Source of the DNA: Jaapia argillacea MUCL 33604
Taxonomy: Eukaryota > Basidiomycota > Agaricomycetes > Jaapiales > Jaapiaceae
Assembly (NCBI GenBank): GCA_000697665.1
Contig: KL197767.1
Location: 62,589 to 126,588 of the forward strand
Length of the DNA stretch: 64,000 nucleotides
Direction of reading: 5' to 3'
The notes beneath the pieces were generated by a model, which had not been told where the DNA came from, did not search any database, and worked only from the letters and a program-made list of their open reading frames with translations. The translations under genes and the position numbers were made by a program. Position 1 is the first letter of the stretch. Every line of letters starts with the position of its first letter. Below are positions 2,139 through 12,412 of the stretch, piece by piece.

Positions 2139-2569
2139 ATCAAACTTCCATATTCTCGCTCTGGCTGGTCTATCAACTCACTTTATCTTCGCAGATTTCT
2201 CGCTACTCAGACAGCTCGACCTCTTTCGATTTGGAGGAATGCTTATTCGATTTCTCTCGCCAAGTTGATCATTCTGATTCCCATTGTCCGATCAACCTGG
2301 AGCCATTGTCTGCAACTCTTACACGAACGATTCCACAGACCAAGAAACCGTCCGACTCGAGCCTTCCACACTTCTTCCCACTCACTTCTCTGTCGTGCCC
2401 TCCTTCAACAAGAATCCCTCCAAATTTCTTTCGGATCACGCATCCGCGAGGGTTGCATCAGTCTTCACCGCGCTTCCCGGATTGACATAGAGGATGACGT
2501 GAGGGGGAGGTGGGAGGGGAAGCTGGAGTTGACGATGGGAGGAGAGTTGAGAGGAGGGACGGAGTGATT

Positions 2570-4005
2570 CTCGCTGGCGAATGAAAGAGATGAACAGTCT
2601 TGGTGTTTTGGGTTAGGTTCCTCGCGTCGTCAATCAAGACGTTGATGGCGTCGACGACGATATTCATACTTTGACCGTTGGCGAAACGTTCGAAAAGGGT
2701 TCGCAATTCCTTCATCGCTTGCTTGAGTGAAGGGTCGGATATGAGTTGGGCGTGGCTGCCTTGAACATGGCTGGCAACAGTCTTCGTGTGCCTCGAGTAC
2801 TCCTCGAGGTAGGAGAAGGGCCATTGGATGGACTCCTGGTAATTGTACTTCTGGGACTCGAAGATGACCTGAAGTCAAAGAAGAAGTCAGACGCCAACGA
2901 AGCTAACATAAAAGAGAATAAAATGAATGAGTCTCACCTTCTCACCGCGGTAGATGAACTGGTCGCGACGCTCGTCAGGGAAACACTCCTCAGTTCAGAA
3001 CTTGCGGCCTCGTTTGTAATGGTCATTCGCCCGATCCTTATGCTCTTGAGGTACACGGTTCAACATGTCGTCCTACACAGACGAACGTGAGACCGGTCCA
3101 AGTGGGTGCGCAACGGAAAGGCCCACCCTCGTACCCTTCATCTTACTCGTGATTCCTGACTTCTGCGCGTGGGCTTCCTCTTGGTTATCAGGGAGATTGT
3201 CCGTTCCTATCGATGGAGATTAGTAACAAGATCCAAACTAAGATGATACGGACTTACTCTTGAGCCTGGTCGATACCACGATTGAATTGATCTTGGCCCA
3301 GATCTCTGGCGGCCATGGTCCTATCCCGATCCTGAGAATATCTTAGTCACCCCTCATCTCCTGGCCGTTTGCGTTAACCCTCGTCCAGCTCTAATGGCTT
3401 CCCTCGGATGCTGCTGGACACCCCATCCCTACCAGGTCGTGGATCGGGGATGCGAGCCTTGAGGATTGGAGTCTCGTTCGCGTCAGCGACTCGTCCGCCC
3501 TCCGTAATGAATTGGTTGTCGGGTGCGGTTTAGTCGACATTGCGGAGAGCTTCTTCGTCGGGAGCAAGGGCGAGCAGATCGCGACAGATAAGGGGAAAGT
3601 CGGAGAATAGCTTACAAACCTCAGAGTTGGTGAGGATGAGAGGGGAGGGTACGGAGGTGCGTGACGGCTATTTACGCATACAGTCAATGAAACGTACGCA
3701 TAAGTAAAATCCAAGTACATACCTTCTTGCCCATCATTAGTCACCTTCTCCCTATCGACTGGTAACACCTCGCTGGGTTCCTTCTTGGCCTTCGAAGCGT
3801 CGATACGTTGTGCATGCCAGACGAAGTTCTGGAAAGGTTCGTCGGCATTCTTTCCCTTGAACATCAGACGCGCGGTTTCGATGATGTCGCGTGTATCCTG
3901 GATGAGCTTCTTGCCGTCTGGGGAGAGCTTGTCGAGGTTGACTGGCGACTTATCTTCGACGTAGCGAAGAGTACGTTCGATCTGAGCATTGTCGGGCATA
4001 CGTGA
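2570..4005 (-). pseudogene. HAM1-like fungal protein, truncated and interrupted
   Basis: The minus strand encodes long stretches of the fungal HAM1-like family (the hyphal-anastomosis/LEA-like proteins, not the ITPase also called HAM1). They run in order: RTLRYVEDKSPV and LIQDTRDIIETARLMFKG (from about 3998), LTNSEVCKLFSDFPLICRDL (3667 downward), DNQFITEGGRVADANETP, RVPQEHKDRANDHYKRGRKF, YLEEYSRH, and ELRTLFERFANGQSMNIVV ending in DAINVLIDDAR near 2620. Introns with GTATGT or GTGGGC donors and TAG or CAG acceptors separate the blocks, for example 3668-3722. Two in-frame stops interrupt conserved blocks, at about 3530-3532 and 2995-2997. The N-terminus is cut at about 4000 by transposase-like sequence, and the large C-terminal HAM1 domain is missing. 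This is a dead gene fragment. Family assignment is from memory of conserved blocks. Confidence 0.65.
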
Positions 4006-5664
4006 AATTCGGTAGTAGCATGCGTGCCAAGCCAATGAAATGTTCGATGAGTTCCGTACCAAGGAGCCAAGGGCAAAATGGTTGGTCAGGATAATATCGG
4101 GCATATGCAAAGATGAGCAAGAGCAAGCTGTCGCAGAGACGATTGAAGATATTGAAGCTTGCCGGGGAGATGAATGAGCGTGTGGTCGAATACAGGTCTG
4201 GATACACGAACGAGAGTTTCTTGATATGGGTCCACCAGATATGAAGGAAATGAAATCTAGCCATGTTTCAGATCGTTATCGTAAAGGTGCTAAAAGAGAA
4301 GCTCACCTTTGCGAGGATGGCTCTCGTCTGGGTAGCCCAAGCTTTCTTCTTCTTGACTAGGGCGATAATCTGGTCAATATCTTCAGTCTTGTCAACCTCA
4401 CAGTCTTGCAGCGACAGGATGGATCCCAGGATATGGCCACCGAAATCATTCGAGTAAGAAAGCCGTTTGCGAACCCTAGTACAGTCGCCGCCGTATGCGA
4501 TGGGTCCAGGGTAACCAAGGGAGTCAGCTAGCCGTTTCACCCGCGCCACGTTCTCGAGATCAAGAAAGGATTTTGAAGACAGTCTTCGGAATTTGCTACG
4601 AGGCGACTGAGCATGCCCAATGTTAATATCAAAGAAGTCAATAGGTTGGAAATTCATACCGTAGGTGACGAGGGGATGGACCTCCAATAGCTCCGGTGAT
4701 AATGGCATATTGTTGCGCGGAGTTTGCGCCGTACGATCGCAAGAGGGTCATAAAATTGAGATAATTGGCAGGATAGCGAATGCCGTGCTTCAGTTTCTTG
4801 TTAGAAGCCGTGCTTCGGTTAACTTGCTCTGCCAGAACTTGACAGATTTCGGTGATCGATTTACTGTCTGTGAGCTTTCCACTCTTCGCATGATGGTAAA
4901 GGTGGAGGAGACATCCGATAGAGTCATTTCGTTCCAGAGATTGAAGAACCGCAAAGAGAAGGGGATCAGCCAGTTTCGCTTGGAGAGCTCGACCCTCAAC
5001 GTCGCGGAAAGTGTGGGACGAGAACTTCTCACGTTTGACGTGAATCTATTGCTGCTTGTCTTGTGAGGGCTCCGCCTCCTTGATTTTCTACTGCATTGGA
5101 TCAGCACTATCAAAGCCCCATAATCGTTGGCAGCTTACCCTGCGAACCACGGTCTTGAATGATTCGTCATCTTTGAGCGCTTGACACTGGCAGCATACAC
5201 CTGACTTTTCGATTGTTGTCCCCTCGCACCTCGTTGATCGTACCCATCCTTCCGTTCGATTTCACCTCCCAGCGAGCCCATCCCTTCAAATTCTTGTCAA
5301 ACCTTCTCCGCTCGCCATCCGTCCATTGCGACTCGTTCACCTTCGTATTGCCATCTGTTGGAACCTCCACTTTCACGACGACGTCCATCGTTTCGTCACC
5401 CTCTATCGCATCCTCGTCGGTTTCGTTGGAGCCAACATCTCCACCCCCAGGCAGATTGGTCAGACCTTTTAGTGGTTGAAATGGTTTATACGGAAAGATT
5501 TGTCGCATAAGTCGGGCTCGGAGCGTCGGTGACACCCCTCCCAAGGTACGTGTATGAGTGCGGAGTATATACTCTGTGTACATCCGGTCAGTGAGGTGCT
5601 GACAGGCCATTCGCATCTCCACGACAGGTGGTATGATTTTGTTTGGAGTATGCAGTACATCCAC
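3995..5664 (-). pseudogene. Transposase-like body of the composite element
   Basis: Reading down the minus strand: MYTEYILRTHTRTLGGVSPT and LRARLMRQIFPYKPF (5560-5470), an acidic spacer, WTDGERRRFDKNLKGWARWE (5330-5270), then after a one-base frame change CEGTT...CCQCQALKDDESFK (5225-5150). Next come LLHLYHHAKSGKLTDSKSI and GIRYPANYLNFMTLLRSYGA (4920-4740), an intron with a GTATGA donor near 4660, VARVKRLADSLGYPGPIAYG and LSYSNDFGGHILGSIL (4550-4400). Finally WWTHIKKLSFVYPDLYST and FCPWLLGTELIEHFIGLARM (4240-4020). One in-frame stop lies near 5050, a second frame change near 4570, and a jump near 4270 shows that about 150-200 residues present in relatives are absent. Relatedness to P-element/THAP9-like enzymes is a guess from the final E-containing block. 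Confidence 0.5.
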
Positions 5665-5998
5665 GGGTTTGAATATCTGGGAAACGGACAGATTCTAGGT
5701 ATGAAATCGAGAACTTGGGTAAGTCCGGTCAGTCAGAATAATTTACAATCATTACTCACGGCTTTGACAACTTTAGTCTGGTACGTAACTCCAAGAGATG
5801 GCGGGGATGGACTTGTTGTAGCGGGACTGGTTGGAGGCTGGGACGGGCCCGGAGAATCCAACTTTTGGATAAAATAGGCTGAGATTGTTCGGTTTCCTGG
5901 TATCTGTGGCTCTGGAGTCAGGATAGGAAAACATACACGAGGTGAGACATTACTTCGGTGAATCGTTTCTCGCTTTTGACCACTATTCTCTTCCTCTC

Positions 5999-6512
5999 GA
6001 CTCAAGTGATCGGGGACACCGCTCTCGATGACGTAGCCAGTTTGTGCTATCGTATTCACGGTCCTCCCTCAAATCATACCAATCATCACACCCCTGACAT
6101 CGAATGCGTTGGGCTTCCACAGCCTTCACCCACGGATCATTCTCAAGCTCTGCCCTTCGCAGCGCAAGAGTTTTGCGTTTCTTTCGAGGGCCTGTGGCTG
6201 CCTTGGATCGCTTCAACGTAGCTGATTCATTGTCGGTGAGGTAGCCCTCCGTATCGTTGCTACCATCACGACATTTGGCGGGTTCTGGAGCAGTAGTCGT
6301 CGCAGAGTTTTCGGTGGTGCCATCCTGCAAGCTATCCGGGCTGTGTTCGCTATGAATTAGAGTGAGCCCTTGCATGTCTCAACTAACCTTCGTGTACACT
6401 CACTCAACCACTGTAGCATTGGGCGTGATGAACTCGATTTCATCTGAGTCGTCATCAAGTCCGGTGGCTTCCATATCATCGTCTGTAGGTGAACGGCCCC
6501 TCCTTATGACCC
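5999..6512 (-). pseudogene. Acidic/basic linker and Cys-His knuckle downstream of Ulp1 domain
   Basis: The exon beginning at 6512 encodes an acidic run (MEATGLDDDSDEIEFITP). Intron 6350-6403 then joins to a Ser/Thr-rich stretch, a basic GPRKKRKTLALRR segment and the knuckle WVKAVEAQRIRCQGC ... NWLRHRERC (C-x2-C-x~20-H-x3-C spacing, positions about 6090-6010). Short knuckles of this kind are common in mushroom Ulp1- and transposase-associated proteins and probably bind DNA. Splice phases match those of the protease exon upstream, so both belonged to one transcript. The following module is at 5664-5130. Confidence 0.55.
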
Positions 6513-7059
6513 TATTATTGACGTGACGGTGATGAGTATAATATCAAGTAGTTCAATACCTTCACATACGTTTCCTTCAGAAGTGCTTGCAAAGCACCTG
6601 CTCGGATATCCTCTTTAAACGCATCCTTAACATACAGGTCATGGTCGACGTTGTCGGCAAAGGCTTTGAGGGCCATTATTGTGAACAATCCATACGACCA
6701 TCCATCAAGTTGCCGATCAAGCTCGCTGGGAGAGCATACGGCGCGCTTCCAGTTTTCCGTTCCCCACTTAATTTTCGGACATTCTATAAATTCAAGGATC
6801 TTGTCAACAATCCGAAGCAGCATCTTCAATCCATTCATGTGAGTACTTTCGTCGAGTCTACCATTGTCAGTCAACTCACAGGTTCAGCCCAGTAGCTCGA
6901 TCCGAGCTCCAGTACACTATCGCAAATCCCAAGCTCTCTTGAACCGAAGTCAAGCCAGCCCAATACCCAGTGTGCTGGAGATCCCGAACACAGGGGAATT
7001 GCCCACCGAGGTCGACTTCGCGCCTCTTGCTTCCGGCAGTTTGGACACTGAGAGGTCAT
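6512..7059 (-). pseudogene. Ulp1-like (C48) SUMO-protease domain
   Basis: The block AHWVLGWLDFGSRELGICDS (about 6985-6925) fits the His-containing strand and following Asp region of Ulp1 peptidases. After an intron at 6824-6879 the frame continues MLLRIVDKILEFIECPKIKW and reaches QLDGWSYGLFTIMALKAFAD near 6700-6650. In Ulp1 proteases that last block reads Q..GWSCG, so the catalytic Cys is replaced by Tyr here. A second intron at 6513-6569 leads into an acidic linker. Ulp1 enzymes process or remove SUMO, and many mushroom mobile elements carry such domains. With the nucleophile gone and no clear N-terminal half between 7060 and 7450, the domain is probably inactive and its gene incomplete. Confidence 0.6.
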
Positions 7060-7060
7060 G

Positions 7061-7855
7061 AATTAGTACGGAGGCCCTAACCCCAGGTCTGGAAGTAAGT
7101 TCGATGGTGATTGGTTGCAACACAACACCCGAGTCGTGTAGAGCACAGGAGGGGATTCCTTACACAGGGAAAGACCCGTGAGTCGTGACGCTGGTTCTCG
7201 ACGCACCTCCTTGGGGACCTACAGATGTTCCCTCTGCCTTGTGGAGTGACAATGCGATTACTATGGCGGGATGTATATTTCATCAAAAAATAATGCATGA
7301 CTTTGCTATCAGGTTGGGGGTTTGGGCTATGACCGAACTTGAGCGTCGTGGTTGCATCGCTTCTTGAAGCAGTTCGACTATAGTTTTGTGGTTTTCGAAT
7401 TCTCAACGGTGGACAGACGTCATGATTGTACTTGCTCATGAGCAGGAGCTGGCCTCCACTTCAGAGGCTCAAGACAGGTGGAGCCAACGGACCTTAGGAC
7501 AGGATGCCGAACCCATTGGGGGGACCACCACTGCTGCGAGGCGAGAGGGGTTGCTGATCGAGCGGCGAGCCGAAAACAGGTGTCGAACGAGTACCTTGGT
7601 GGCAGCTGCCGCCACTATCTTCGCGGCGAGACGAAGTGATCATGATTGATACAACCTACAGGGTGATCCACGTTGATTTCCACGTACACAGAGTCTACTG
7701 TCCACCCCGAGTCCACCGGATATGCTGTGGCTTGTGTGGACTTGGCACAGAACTCCGACTCTCCGCTGCTTCACCCCCTTTAAAACATCGCTCACACACT
7801 CCAAAACCTTTCTCGTTCTCCACTCTGACCGCTACAAAGAAATCTGGATCAGACA
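7061..7855. other. Interval upstream of two divergent genes, no clear gene
   Basis: No convincing N-terminal Ulp1 exon is visible on the minus strand, although it would be expected here. A TTTAAA at about 7780 lies some 75 bp before the F-box-like start codon and may be a weak core promoter for that gene. Confidence 0.3.
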
Positions 7856-9814
7856 ATGATTTGCACACGAGTTCTGTCGATCCTGGAGGTGCAGCGTATC
7901 GTCCTCGCCTGGTTGCGCGACTGCTGTGATGAGTCTGATCGCCCCAAGTCCAACTTACTTTCGGCTGCCCGGTCTACCCGCCTCTTCCGCGATGCTGCAA
8001 TAGAGCTTATATGGCAGGACTTGCATTCCTTGGACCCCCTCTGGAGACTGATCCCTGAATCGGAGCAGTCTGACGATGGGATTTGGGCAAGTCTTATTCA
8101 ACTGGTTCATCTTTGCAGTGATCTGATGGAAACACATTTCACATTTCAGACGCAGGACTCGGAGGACATGAACAAGGAAGACCGTTGTTACGAACGTTTC
8201 CGCTTTTACGCCGCTCAAGTGCAAGGGATAAAGGTATTATGCAATGAAGCCGAGCTAACCCGGCTTTACAGCTGCGACAAGTTTGTGCTTCCCGGGCTTA
8301 AGTCCCTGGTTTGGAATTGGTACACAGAGGTGTGGGTTGATGAGAGTCGGTGGGCTGAGTGGATTCCCAGGGCATCTGATCGGGAACCTGTCACGGTCGC
8401 CCTATCCAGGTTTCTGTCGATGACGCTAGAGTGGCTAGAGATTAACGGGAGGGTACCGACGATACTCTACGTGGCGTTGACGGAGCTCATCGAATCTCTA
8501 CCCGCTACGTGCCCATCGCTCAAGGGTTTCCAACTCACAGGATCCGAGTTTCCCCTTTCTACAATCATGAAACCGCTTTCAAGTCTACGGGGTTTGGAGT
8601 CGATGCGGTTTTCTGATCCTCCATGCCTGGATGGGTTGGATGTGCCAGCGCAAGTTCCTTTCCGGTCGCTACAGTCACTGCGTCTGGACTCTCTCTCCTT
8701 GAACGGCGCCCCCAGGTTCCTTGACAGTCTCTCAACCAGAGGGACTTTGAGGGGTTTATCGGTTAAAATCCGTTCCAAACCTAATGGAGCCACCATCCCA
8801 ACCCAACTCGCCAGTGTGGCCAGGTTGTCCAGCCTTACGAGGCTAGTTTTATACCTTGACCTTGGCTGGGATAGTACTCTCACTGGTAGTGAGCTGTTAG
8901 CACCCCTGCTCGCTCTCAGATCTATCAAAGAGTTGAGAGTCATTGGCCGGGGTCCGAGTACTCTTCTGTCCAACGCTACGGATGTGGCCGATATGCGACG
9001 GTCTTGGCCATGGCTGAGAAGCCTAATCCTTGGCCACCCTTCACTTTCCTTCCACCTACGCGTCGTCCATGGATTTTCTTCGTTTGCAAATCTTGCCGAG
9101 CTGCGACTCAAAATGTATCATCACAACTGCGACTTCAAAGTTGATCCGGAATGGGAGTTGACTTCAGGGTTGGTGATCTTCGACTGCGACATTATAGAGT
9201 CGCCGTGGATTCTGGGCGATTACACATACCCAAAGATGGCGCGTTATCTCCACGCCATCTTCCCAAAAATGCAACCCATGGTTCACTGGCACACTCCTTC
9301 CTACGGCTGGAAACGCCATATTCCTGGTGTTCCTGGCGACGCAGAGTTGCAGTTTGCTATTTATGAGGAAATCTTCTCAAAGCCTTTTCCTCGCAAGCCG
9401 CAACACTGGTGGGGCGCAGATGACTCGGGAAGCAGGGGGAAAGACCGGGGGAAAGATGGGGGAGAAGACGGAGGGGAAGGTGGGGGAGAAGATGGAGGGG
9501 AAGGCGGGGGAGAAGACGGAGGGGAAGGCTGGGGAGAAGACAGAGGGGAAGGCTGGGGAAAACACCGAGGGGAAGGTGGGGGAGAAGACAGACGGGAAGG
9601 CGGGGGAGAAGACGGAGAAGAAGGTTGGGGGGAAGACTGGGGAGAATGTCGTGGTGTTGAAGAGGTTCCCAAATATGAGGACCCTGATCCGGAGAGCTTT
9701 AGGGAGGGCGACAATTTTCCTCGTTGGTATGTGTCCGTGTGTCCCCATTGTTGCTATTGTTGCTGACTCCCCTGTTTGTTTCTCAGTCCTTTTGATTGGT
9801 ATTTGGACTATTAG
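7856..9814 (+). CDS. F-box/LRR-like protein with an internal Gly-Glu repeat
   Basis: The N-terminus (LEVQRIVLAWLRDC ... AARSTRLFRDAAIELIWQDL, residues 10-60) has the shape of a degenerate mushroom F-box, the module that binds Skp1 in SCF ubiquitin ligases. It is followed by leucine-rich-repeat-like units (LESMRFSD, LQSLRLDSLSL, LRGLSVKIR, SLTRLVLYLDL, IKELRVIG) to about residue 450. Residues about 523-600 are a GGEDGGEG-type repeat from a minisatellite. I end the gene through a terminal intron (9727-9786, donor GTATGTG, branch-like CTGAC, acceptor CAG) giving the ending CPFDWYLDY; without splicing the frame ends in CPHCCYCC. A paralogue at 49.4-51.1 kb keeps the same intron but lacks the repeat. 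Its target is unknown. Confidence 0.7.
9425..9650 (+). repeat. GA-rich minisatellite inside the F-box-like gene
   Basis: Roughly nine tandem units of about 24 bp, of the form GGGGAAGGTGGGGGAGAAGA with variants. The unit length is a multiple of three, so the host frame (Gly/Glu/Asp-rich) stays open; a second frame (Lys/Glu/Gly-rich) is open through the array as well. Runs of G on one strand could form G-quadruplexes. The paralogue at 49.4 kb has no array, so it arose after duplication or was lost there. Confidence 0.8.
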
Positions 9815-10312
9815 TAACGGGATCGCGCTGTGTATCTATCTGTTGATCGGTATTTTGATCTTTGATCATGCTGTGAAGACAGAGTTATAATTGTTGATTG
9901 ATTGAATGCTCTGTAGACCGGTGTAAGGCGGTTGTATTGCTCCGTTACAGTCATCACGCGCTTCTCGAGACACTTCGCCTTCCTGCTCACCCAACGCCTC
10001 GCTCACTCACTGCGTCGCTTTGCGACAACTTGGAATCGAAAGAACTGCTTCTTAGCTAGAGATAGAGCAAACATTGGAAAGAATATATGTGCTTGAACAA
10101 CTCGAATAATCAATCTTTGATTGCGACTACGTTTGAGACGCTTCACAACCAACTAAGACCTGGCCACAACACAGACACTACCCCACATTTAGGCACCAAA
10201 CAAATTTGCTTTCCTTAGCTACATACTGTGGATAACTTGAGGGTGTTTCGAGCCCAGTTCATGGAGATTGAGACAGAGTTGAGGCAAAACTTGATGTGCA
10301 AGAGCCGCGCAT
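9815..10312. other. Intergenic interval
   Basis: 3' flank of the F-box-like gene and upstream flank of the transposase fossil. No gene or terminal repeat was recognised. Confidence 0.4.
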
Positions 10313-12412
10313 ATGGCGCCGCGTGACATGGCCACTCTCCCTCATTTTGCGGCATGTTTGGCTATGCAATATATTCAAGATTTAGTCTACCATATTGCCG
10401 TGAAGTTCCCTGTTTCTCTCTCCCAACTCCCCTCACCAGAAACATTCTCTACCCACTGTACTCCGATCAGCCTACCCATCAATCACTATGCCGGGAAGAG
10501 CAAAATCCGAGGAAAAGAAAGCTCAAATCCAGAGGGAAGAGCATGCCTGTCTCATGGCGAAGCGATGGCGTTTTACCAGGAGGAAAGAGATAGACCCGAA
10601 ACAGAGAAGAGGCGAGGTCTTCGCTTGGTTTGCCAGGAGTTCGAGAAAGAGCACCTAAAGGAAACAGGAGAGGCAATCAAGCTAAGTCATGCTACGCTCG
10701 CACGACTGGTAAAAGGAGGTGTTGCACTTGCTAGATTCAATGAATCAAAGTCTTGGCTGTTGAAGGAAGAGGTCGAGCAGGTGATCGAGTGTGCGAGGGC
10801 CGTTGCTGATCGAGGATTTCCGTCGAGTCACCGCCGCTTGAAGGAGCATGTGGATGAGATCTGTCGTGCACGTTTGGGGTCAAATTTTCCCAAACAAGGT
10901 GTGGCGAGAGGATGGACTCAACGATTTGTGACAAAACATTCGGACCGCCTCACGATGTACAAGCCTCGGCCACTCGACAAGTCTAGGGCTCGAGGAGTAA
11001 ACCCAACGGCAAATGCTGCTTGGTTCACATTACTTGCGGAGACCCTTGAGAAGGGTGATGACGGGAAGCCAATCGCGCAAGAGTGTTGTTGGGCTGCAGA
11101 CGAGAGCGGATTCCAATCTGGGCTGGGCGAGACGCAAGAAAAGGTGATTGGAGGAAAGGGGAAGAAGAGTCAGTATCAACAACATGAGGGTGATCGAGAG
11201 AACATTACAGCGATTGTGACGATTGGGGCAGATGGTTCGTCGCTACCCCCTGCAGTGATTTTTAAGGGACAGGCATACCAGTCATCTTGGAAACAGGATA
11301 ATCCCGCCAATGCATCGTGAGTAATTTGACCCACAAAAGCCACTTGCGTCTGACATCACACAGCCTGGGTTGGATGGACGGCGAAATTGGGGTGCTCTAC
11401 ATCGAGCAGTTCGATAAACAGACTCGCGCGAAGGCACAGGGCCGGGCTGGAGTCCTGCTGGTCGATGGCCACAACACCACTATACACGCAGCTTCCTCGA
11501 GTACACACGGACACATAACATCTATATCCTCTGCTACCCCGCACACAGCACACATATCTACCAGGGACTCGATGTTGTGGTCTTCAGTGTCTTGAAGCGC
11601 TGCTGGAGGAACGGGACAAGTGGGAACGACTTCGAGGGGAGAAGATCACCAAAAAGAATTTTCTTATTGTCTACGGGCTTGTTCATGTTCGAGCGATGAA
11701 GCCTGACCTGATACAGAAGGCATTTCAGGCCACAGGAGTTTGGCCTTTCGACCCCACAGTCGTGACAGCAGAGAAAATGGCCCCAAGCCTCGAGACGTCG
11801 TGTGAGGGCCATCTTCCATTTCAACCTTCGACACCTGTCCAAATCGTGACCAACTTGTTCCGGAAGGTGAGGGTTGAGCCAGAGGAGTCAGAAGAATCAT
11901 TGGGGGAGTCAGACAAGAGGTTGCGGGAGGTGTTGGAGGTGTTGAGGTCAAATGAGCATGGCATGACCGAAGGTGAGCTCGGACCTCAACCCTCAACTAC
12001 AACAGATGAAACATCAACTTCCATATCAATAGAACATACTCCAGTCAAGCATGCACGTACTGCAATGGCATCCACGAGGGCAGCATTCCTGTTCACCTCA
12101 TCTCCCATGAAATGGGCATCGGAATTGCCTCCCCCTCCCGTCCTAAACATATCCCCACTAAAAAGTAGCAGCCGACACCATGATCGCTTCTTTCACTCCT
12201 TCCGGCGATTTTCCAACACTCGACGCTCCAACACTCATGCTCCCACTTCCGTTGACGAGGGTTGGATAAAGGATGCGAGAGACGAGTTCATGCCAGGTGG
12301 TGACGGAGACGTAGAAGGGCTCGACGACGTCGAGGGAGGCGGGATGCCATGGGTTGAAAACATCGTCGATGATGGGTCGACTTGCATTTTGGGTGTTGAT
12401 GATTTGTCTTGA
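10313..12412 (+). pseudogene. Pogo/CENP-B-type DDE transposase, decayed
   Basis: A start-like MPGRAKSEEKKAQIQREE at 10488 lies in a different frame from the body, so there is a frame change near 10545. The body has an HTH CENP-B-type region (IKLSHATLARLVKGG ... SSHRRLKEHVDEICRARLG ... RGWTQRFVTKHSDRL). The catalytic domain shows AADESGF (first Asp, about 11095), LLVDGHN (second Asp, about 11460) and, in another frame, HIYQGLDVVVFSVLKRCW (third Asp, about 11565). The end IQKAFQATGVWPFDP is typical of the family. An intron at 11317-11363 is in phase. At least three frame changes disrupt it. The C-terminal 200 residues are Ser/Thr- and acid-rich. No terminal inverted repeats were found by eye. 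This is a plain DNA transposon remnant. Confidence 0.75.

Follow-up and report, generated by a model that had tools for sequence, protein, structure and literature searches.

Near one end of the window, a 64,000-nucleotide stretch of contig KL197767.1 from Jaapia argillacea MUCL 33604, lies a decayed, dead fragment of a DNA transposon, occupying window positions 3996-7049 on the minus strand. Its limits were set by blastn against two relatives in the same assembly: homology to the C13 element falls into three blocks (82%, 73%, and 69% identity), and homology to the C21 copy into two (81% and 68%). The fragment has neither terminus. There is no terminal repeat in the window, and a search of the window for two known transposon termini, tolerating up to three mismatches, found neither. 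At its lower end the homology stops at 3996, where it abuts a HAM1-like host domain. The preliminary description had placed a unit at 3995-7060 with its parts in order on one strand; the order is borne out and the extent closely so, and the same order recurs in the C13, C6, and C1 relatives.

Read along the minus strand, the fragment begins inside a Ulp1-like domain, of which just the second half is retained. A first piece (6881-7047) carries the His motif HWVLGWLDF (6946-6972) and the Asp motif DSVLELG (6901-6921), and a second (6570-6828) carries the Gln and the catalytic-Cys motif. Joined, the two align with the C13 domain over 122 amino acids at 78% identity. The second piece reads WSYG (6689-6700) in place of the WSCG of C13, such that the catalytic Cys has become Tyr, and the frames of the window copy gave no match to the Pfam Ulp1/C48 family (PF02902). 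Between the pieces lies an intron-like stretch (6829-6880, placed by eye), which preserves its donor and lacks the exon-border AG that C13 has; other AGs are present inside it, so splicing there could still occur. Two further introns, both with GT-AG borders, occupy 6512-6569 and 6350-6403, the same sites as in C13 (L030 6141-6201 and 5979-6032, respectively), and enclose an acidic linker exon (6404-6511). Thus, two of the three introns proposed earlier stand in full, and the first is intron-like but without the acceptor at the exon border. Next comes a zinc knuckle of the form CxxC...HxxxC (6016-6099; C2HC, BED-like by eye), which is kept in C13 (L030 5639-5722). Directly past the knuckle, the frame of the window copy shifts. 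The earlier reading of one spliced unit is thus borne out in part.

The remainder of the fragment, also on the minus strand, is the large body noted earlier, present but with its middle deleted. Its N-terminal part (5181-5694) includes a second Cys-rich stretch (5181-5240) in a different frame. There follow a conserved exon (KFSSHTFRDVEG ... IGGPSPRHLR, 4659-5045), 79% identical to C13 and 72% to C21, and an exon with the first-Asp motif YGGDCTRVRK (4307-4620, its upper border approximate; motif at 4466-4495). At 4251-4301, a mere 51 nts replace 757 nts of C13 (L030 2991-3747, partly intron). As a result of this deletion of the catalytic middle, the second catalytic Asp, the DPxH motif, and part of the insertion domain are gone, and the catalytic triad and signature string discussed below are incomplete in the window copy. 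The last piece (3996-4250), 82% identical to C13, bears the Glu motif GTELIEHFIG (4031-4060) and ends at LLPNFTYA. Altogether, the window copy lacks both ends and half of the protease, and its core is short by about 700 bp.

The terminal repeats and target-site duplications that the preliminary description proposed to look for are found in the relatives. The C13 element is 6,286 bp long, with 33-bp terminal inverted repeats at 94% identity and a perfect 8-bp target duplication outside them. The C6 element, from a diverged family, spans 8,387 bp with the same layout of Ulp1-like domain, knuckle, and body; its inverted arms match at 92% over 39 nts, 33 of which lie inside the duplication. An 8-bp duplication flanks all five two-ended elements (C13, C6, C18, C3, and C4), perfect in four and 7/8 in the other. 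The relatives also include deleted derivatives and MITE-like copies. A weak match was recorded at C18:338281 (E 0.03). A search for relatives in virus, phage, and prokaryote contig collections returned none, as expected for such collections. Conceivably, the unit could be a host gene that arose by domestication, not a transposon fossil, given its low copy number and the old divergence implied by 66-82% identity among three copies over two aligned blocks. This reading is highly improbable, as the window copy has suffered a deletion, a frameshift, and the loss of its Cys and its ends, while its relatives bear terminal repeats and duplications and have spawned deleted and MITE-like forms. None of the five body-bearing copies appears intact.

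How protease and core are joined in an intact element must be read from these damaged copies. In C6, the Ulp1-like domain and the knuckle share one 1,059-amino-acid frame whose end, by eye, resembles the N-terminus of the body; the C6 core follows in later frames interrupted by stops. A single open frame from protease to catalytic core was seen in no copy examined. Nevertheless, nothing in the relatives suggests a protease gene distinct from a body gene, the outcome that would have counted against the original proposal, and a transcript spanning both is predicted from the sequence. The earlier suggestion of a mobile element carrying a SUMO protease consequently finds its backing in the relatives, through their repeats, duplications, shared order, and the C6 frame, but not in the window copy, which is dead.

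The catalytic residues of the protease, His, Asp, Gln, and Cys, are all kept in C13, C6, and C1, a set broken in the window copy by the Cys-to-Tyr change. Against PF02902, for which the cut-off is 20.7 bits, C6 scores 23.6 bits in a six-frame search and 19.7 by hmmscan, while C13 (17.1-19.0 bits) and C1 (16.4 bits) fall below it. In a PDB search with the C13 protease, an unrelated protein ranked first (E 0.1) and the Ulp1-like SUMO protease 6dg4 second; its alignment places the four C13 residues in register but is weak (E 0.64). The Ulp1 domains of the C13 and C6 families are barely alike (24 amino acids, E 1.1), and the C6 domain has nearer relatives on C5 and C10 than in C13, which suggests either exchange or fast change. 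The same divergence lends some weight to the doubtful but not negligible idea that the protease was picked up as a passenger and plays no part in transposition. Its identical position in both families, together with the retention of all four catalytic residues in C13, C6, and C1, argues in the opposite direction.

The preliminary description knew of no named superfamily for this combination. That is probably wrong, since membership of the P superfamily is indicated by the signature residues of the core and by the length of the target duplication (8 bp). For this superfamily a structure has been solved and the mechanism is GTP-dependent (PMC7776569), and there is a published signature string whose motif takes two forms, written [C/D](2)H. 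In an ungapped scan against Drosophila P transposase (6p5a), the D(2)H and EHFFG motifs were the top two matches and fell on one shared diagonal; in control shuffles, the top score alone was equalled in 11 of 300 and the second in 1 of 300. By hhalign, conserved Asp, Asp, and Glu residues face D303, D444, and E531 of P, while the first Asp (D230 of P) was matched only by eye. The D-to-E distance is 189 residues in C13 and 179 in C6, versus 192 in the P comparison; this length and the residue facing D444 are the features seen that bear on a predicted RNase H fold with a GTP-binding insertion domain. The DDE triad and signature string are present in C13, C21, C6, and C1, the last departing from P in having HN instead of RN and in lacking the R that closes the Glu block. 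The residues D, D, D(2)H, the D444-like residue, and E come in the order known from the P superfamily (Drosophila P, THAP9, and the rust elements P-1_MLP and P-1_PSt), and at similar spacing.

Alternatively, the core could come from hAT or KDZ, other superfamilies with 8-bp duplications, or from one without a name, its likeness to P reflecting convergence on a common DDE signature. hAT elements usually give 8-bp duplications (PMC12730594), so the duplication by itself is compatible with hAT. Moreover, Pfam scans of the C13, C6, C1, and window frames found no P-type family matching the core, and the whole-domain hhalign score to P is marginal (26.2, equalled in 3 of 400 shuffles, with a best local block of 22 columns). 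This alternative is nonetheless quite unlikely. DxxHxxKxxRN and EHFFG fit P, spacing included, and took the first two places among ungapped pairings, D(2)H is among the two forms that the P motif takes, and the residue facing D444 is conserved. Fungal KDZ elements are at times linked to Ulp1 in mushrooms, with different core motifs; KDZ as the default answer was provisionally rejected, as its core motifs were not seen while those of P fit. A PDB search with the core profile gave no match and one with the C13 frame only weak, unrelated ones, which counts against the P assignment; PCNA matches in the Pfam and PDB searches of frames (E 0.05-0.4) were set aside as chance; and PF21787 had no match in this genome, a result that says nothing because its control gave no match anywhere. 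Pfam detected no THAP domain in the frames scanned. THAP is stated to be absent from fungi (PMC7776569), and an N-terminal THAP is therefore not defining for a fungal P member.

The fragment is thus quite probably the dead remains of a P-related cut-and-paste transposon whose intact form would encode one spliced Ulp1-knuckle-core protein. Such a protein would comprise, in order, an N-terminal Ulp1-like cysteine protease, an acidic/basic linker, a C2HC knuckle, a DDE core with a P-type insertion domain, and a C-terminal domain. The terminal repeats are close in length to those of P (33 vs. 31 bp; PMC7776569), and the 8-bp duplication is shared with the P elements known from rust fungi. It would differ from P in its N-terminal Ulp1 and knuckle, its extra C-terminal domain, its AGG(C/A)CCC termini, and an overall similarity that is barely detectable. 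Ulp1 in other transposons has, like P elements in rusts, already been published. In Ginger1, 8 of the 16 families of Table 1 have a transposase with a Ulp1 domain, but there Ulp1 is C-terminal, the core is Gypsy-integrase-like, and the families listed are animal (PMC2836005). Mutator-like elements encoding ULP1 are cited there too, with a Mutator transposase (PMC2836005). CryptonS and CryptonF, with oomycete examples, carry a C48 peptidase, but use a tyrosine recombinase, and some CryptonS have the peptidase on an extra protein (PMC3212892). A literature search found no report of a P-type transposase combined with Ulp1, and the accounts of rust P elements consulted do not say whether these carry Ulp1. 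If correct, the assignment would add another independent transposon-protease case, P-type and in the same chain, making a direct test of the protease in cis feasible, and, given a mushroom-type host, would extend the range of P-like elements among Basidiomycota past the rust fungi.

The occurrence of SUMO/ubiquitin-type proteases in unrelated transposons (Ginger1, Mutator, and Crypton) led to the proposal that deconjugation aids transposition (PMC2836005). In an intact Jaapia element, a single transcript would join protease and core; the core would cut at AGGCCCC/AGGACCC termini and insert with an 8-bp stagger; the knuckle or other extra domains might bind DNA or chromatin; and the protease might take the transposase itself, or else proteins located at donor or target sites, as its substrate, removing SUMO or a SUMO-like protein. 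Action against host silencing is a putative role only. A bolder version, in which an undescribed fungal P lineage keeps a working SUMO protease in its transposase chain, bringing a deSUMOylase to donor and target and evading SUMO-dependent host silencing or repair control, with the module swapped among unrelated superfamilies in one genome, is unlikely. With its Cys-to-Tyr change and truncation, the window copy itself can perform none of these steps and cannot act against silencing.

RIP-like decay of the window copy was considered and rejected, there being no clear excess of CpG changes. Copy-specific C-to-T/G-to-A changes in the window copy fall at 6 of 62 CpG and 31 of 394 other C/G sites. 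C13 has 8 of 70 at CpG and 37 of 397 at the other sites, and C21 has 16 of 84 against 56 of 424, with a mild CpG excess possible in C21.

Conserved sequence shows that the minus-strand unit is genuine and no accident of open frames, since the three copies compared share 66-82% nucleotide identity over two aligned blocks. Three blocks of homology, together spanning 3996-7049, align it with a relative on contig C13 of this assembly; this is close to the 3995-7060 proposed in the preliminary description, and the Ulp1-like domain, knuckle-bearing linker and large body follow one another in the order given there. Of the three introns put forward, those at 6512-6569 and 6350-6403 have GT-AG borders at positions equal to those of C13, while the first (6829-6880) lacks the border AG present in C13.

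The relatives of this copy are a transposon. The C13 element measures 6,286 bp between 33-bp inverted repeats that are 94% complementary and is bordered on both sides by CTGGTACC; the element on C6, of a diverged family, measures 8,387 bp, its termini being AGGACCCTGG and its target duplication GATGCAAA. The flanking direct repeat was 8 bp in all five two-ended elements examined, perfect in four and matching at 7 of 8 positions on C3, while the other repeat lengths tried (4-12) gave at most four matching bases. C18, C3 and C4 hold derivatives, short or deleted, that have the C13 type of termini (2,100, 577 and 576 bp, respectively). The C18 derivative retains the C-terminal domain common to C13 and C21, an open stretch of 176 aa (SFVIIQNPCRMYIGEVLDLYKKG...; L061, the C18 locus, 2382-2912, minus strand) that matched no Pfam family. 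Single-ended terminus matches, inspected at their ends alone, occur on C17, C34, C35 and at C6:667039, and the second terminus type was also matched on C1, C34, C8 and C74, the last bearing two that face each other. Protein searches of the genome placed the body at no fewer than five sites (the window, C13, C21, C6 and C1), a lower bound because the search scores only the best candidates; a Ulp1-like domain lies upstream in the same orientation in four of the five, and homology in C21 ends short of it. No body-bearing copy appears intact as assembled. In C13 the Ulp1 exon is interrupted by an in-frame TGA past the catalytic Cys, and the body by another; stops are also present where C21, C6 and C1 match, some of them perhaps intronic.

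Four cores (C13, C21, C6 and C1) share invariant DGA, DPxHxxKT, DAxxN and EHxFG motifs, at a between-family identity of 33-34%. According to PMC8230255, the defining features of the P superfamily are D230, D303, E531 and, at D339, a [C/D](2)H motif; GTP is contacted by D444 of P transposase. The P transposase reference sequence agreed at every letter with PDB 6p5a, the Drosophila P transposase structure, over the stretch shown. An ungapped scan with 12-residue segments, restricted to columns free of gaps and taking the score of whichever subfamily fitted worse, ranked two pairings highest: DPQHARKTCRNQ with DTPHLIKLVRNH at P 339, then ELIEHFFGLARM with DIVEHFFGSMRS at P 528. They fall on one diagonal, and their scores were reached by 11 and 1 of 300 shuffles, respectively. 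In the six-frame translation of the window, 127,996 residues in all, neither motif pattern occurs. With hhalign, conserved Asp, Asp and Glu residues fell opposite D303, D444 and E531 (score 26.2, reached by 3 of 400 shuffles; best local block 22 columns), and the first Asp was paired by eye, DxTK with DEMK. Pfam assigned the core to no transposase family, and a PDB profile search with it returned no match, the C13 frame giving unrelated weak matches only. Taken together, these results lead us to class the element as P-like, a placement that is well though not conclusively supported.

Against a Peptidase_C48 cut-off of 20.7 bits, the protease domain of C6 scored 23.6 in a six-frame search and 19.7 on a whole-frame scan, C13 17.1-19.0 and C1 16.4, and the scan of the window gave no match. 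His, Asp, Gln and Cys of C13 align with the Ulp1-like SUMO protease 6dg4, weakly (E 0.64) and second to an unrelated match (E 0.1); the single match of the C6 protease is SENP3, also weak (E 0.27). Between the two families the protease domains are scarcely similar (24 aa, E 1.1), while that of C6 is 28% identical to one on C10 and 42% to one on C5 (L006, C5:401232), which may reflect either exchange of the module or its rapid evolution. Core searches of the genome found no match on C5. At two further loci, L004 (C10:436969) and L005 (C6:1385456), a Ulp1 domain (31-32 bits) precedes a same-strand frame that is transposase-like by eye and has a zinc-finger-like stretch, without Pfam match; these are possibly a different Ulp1-carrying transposon type.

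C6 gives the clearest case of fusion: a single 1,059-aa frame at 2905-6084 contains both the protease (residues 245-418) and the knuckle (5398-5466), and its end is similar by eye to the beginning of the body. Because the catalytic core of C6 lies in later frames, from 6120, protease and core would be joined in one chain only by splicing. The knuckle reads CxxC...HxxxC in C13 and the window and is a variant in C6. Similar C2HC knuckles are arrayed in separate frames on C12 (952-954k; 35-38% identity) and C4 (495-497k; 30-38%, some matches weak), so that the element has this module in common with further genes of the genome. The termini, the target duplication, the order of the parts and the signature residues were observed directly. 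Beyond them, protease and core would be carried by one spliced chain; the core would act by DDE chemistry, staggered by 8 bp, DNA or chromatin would be bound by the knuckle or the C-terminal domain, and SUMO would be removed by the protease. Bao and colleagues suggest that such proteases may target repair or other host factors in transposition (PMC2836005); action on silencing is an idea of the preliminary description.

Ulp1 proteases are known from Ginger1 and Mutator (PMC2836005) and from Cryptons (PMC3212892). PMC3164196 reports P elements with 8-bp duplications from Melampsora and non-intact ones from Puccinia, elements at that time "previously unknown in any Dikarya". Among the titles and abstract openings of the matches listed, a coverage outside which subscription papers and Repbase reports fall, no report joins P transposase and Ulp1.

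The window copy itself, judged from its sequence, is dead. Neither known element terminus occurs in the window with up to three mismatches allowed, the first half of the protease is absent, and the catalytic Cys has become Tyr (WSYG, 6689-6700; WSCG at 6321-6332 of L030, the C13 locus). The frame shifts immediately past the knuckle, and 757 nt of the catalytic middle are replaced by 51 nt. No clear RIP-like CpG excess was seen, changes affecting 6 of 62 CpG and 31 of 394 other sites. At 3996 the fragment directly adjoins a HAM1-like N-terminal domain (PF19343, E 7e-32; 3391-4010, minus strand), as if the element fragment had interrupted or replaced the start of a HAM1-like gene.

Elsewhere in the window, Pogo/Tc5-like transposase frames lie at 10295-12412 (plus strand): frame 10295-11320 scored 16.8 bits for HTH_Tnp_Tc5 and 13.8 for DDE_1, both below cut-offs, and 11519-12412 matched no Pfam family. 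Nor did a 645-aa frame at 7829-9766 (plus strand), whose tail (9386-9670) is a G/E-rich 12/24-nt repeat. Positions 28-455 are a recent repeat or duplicate, 428 bp that are 99.8% identical to the reverse strand of C12 at ~955452-955879.
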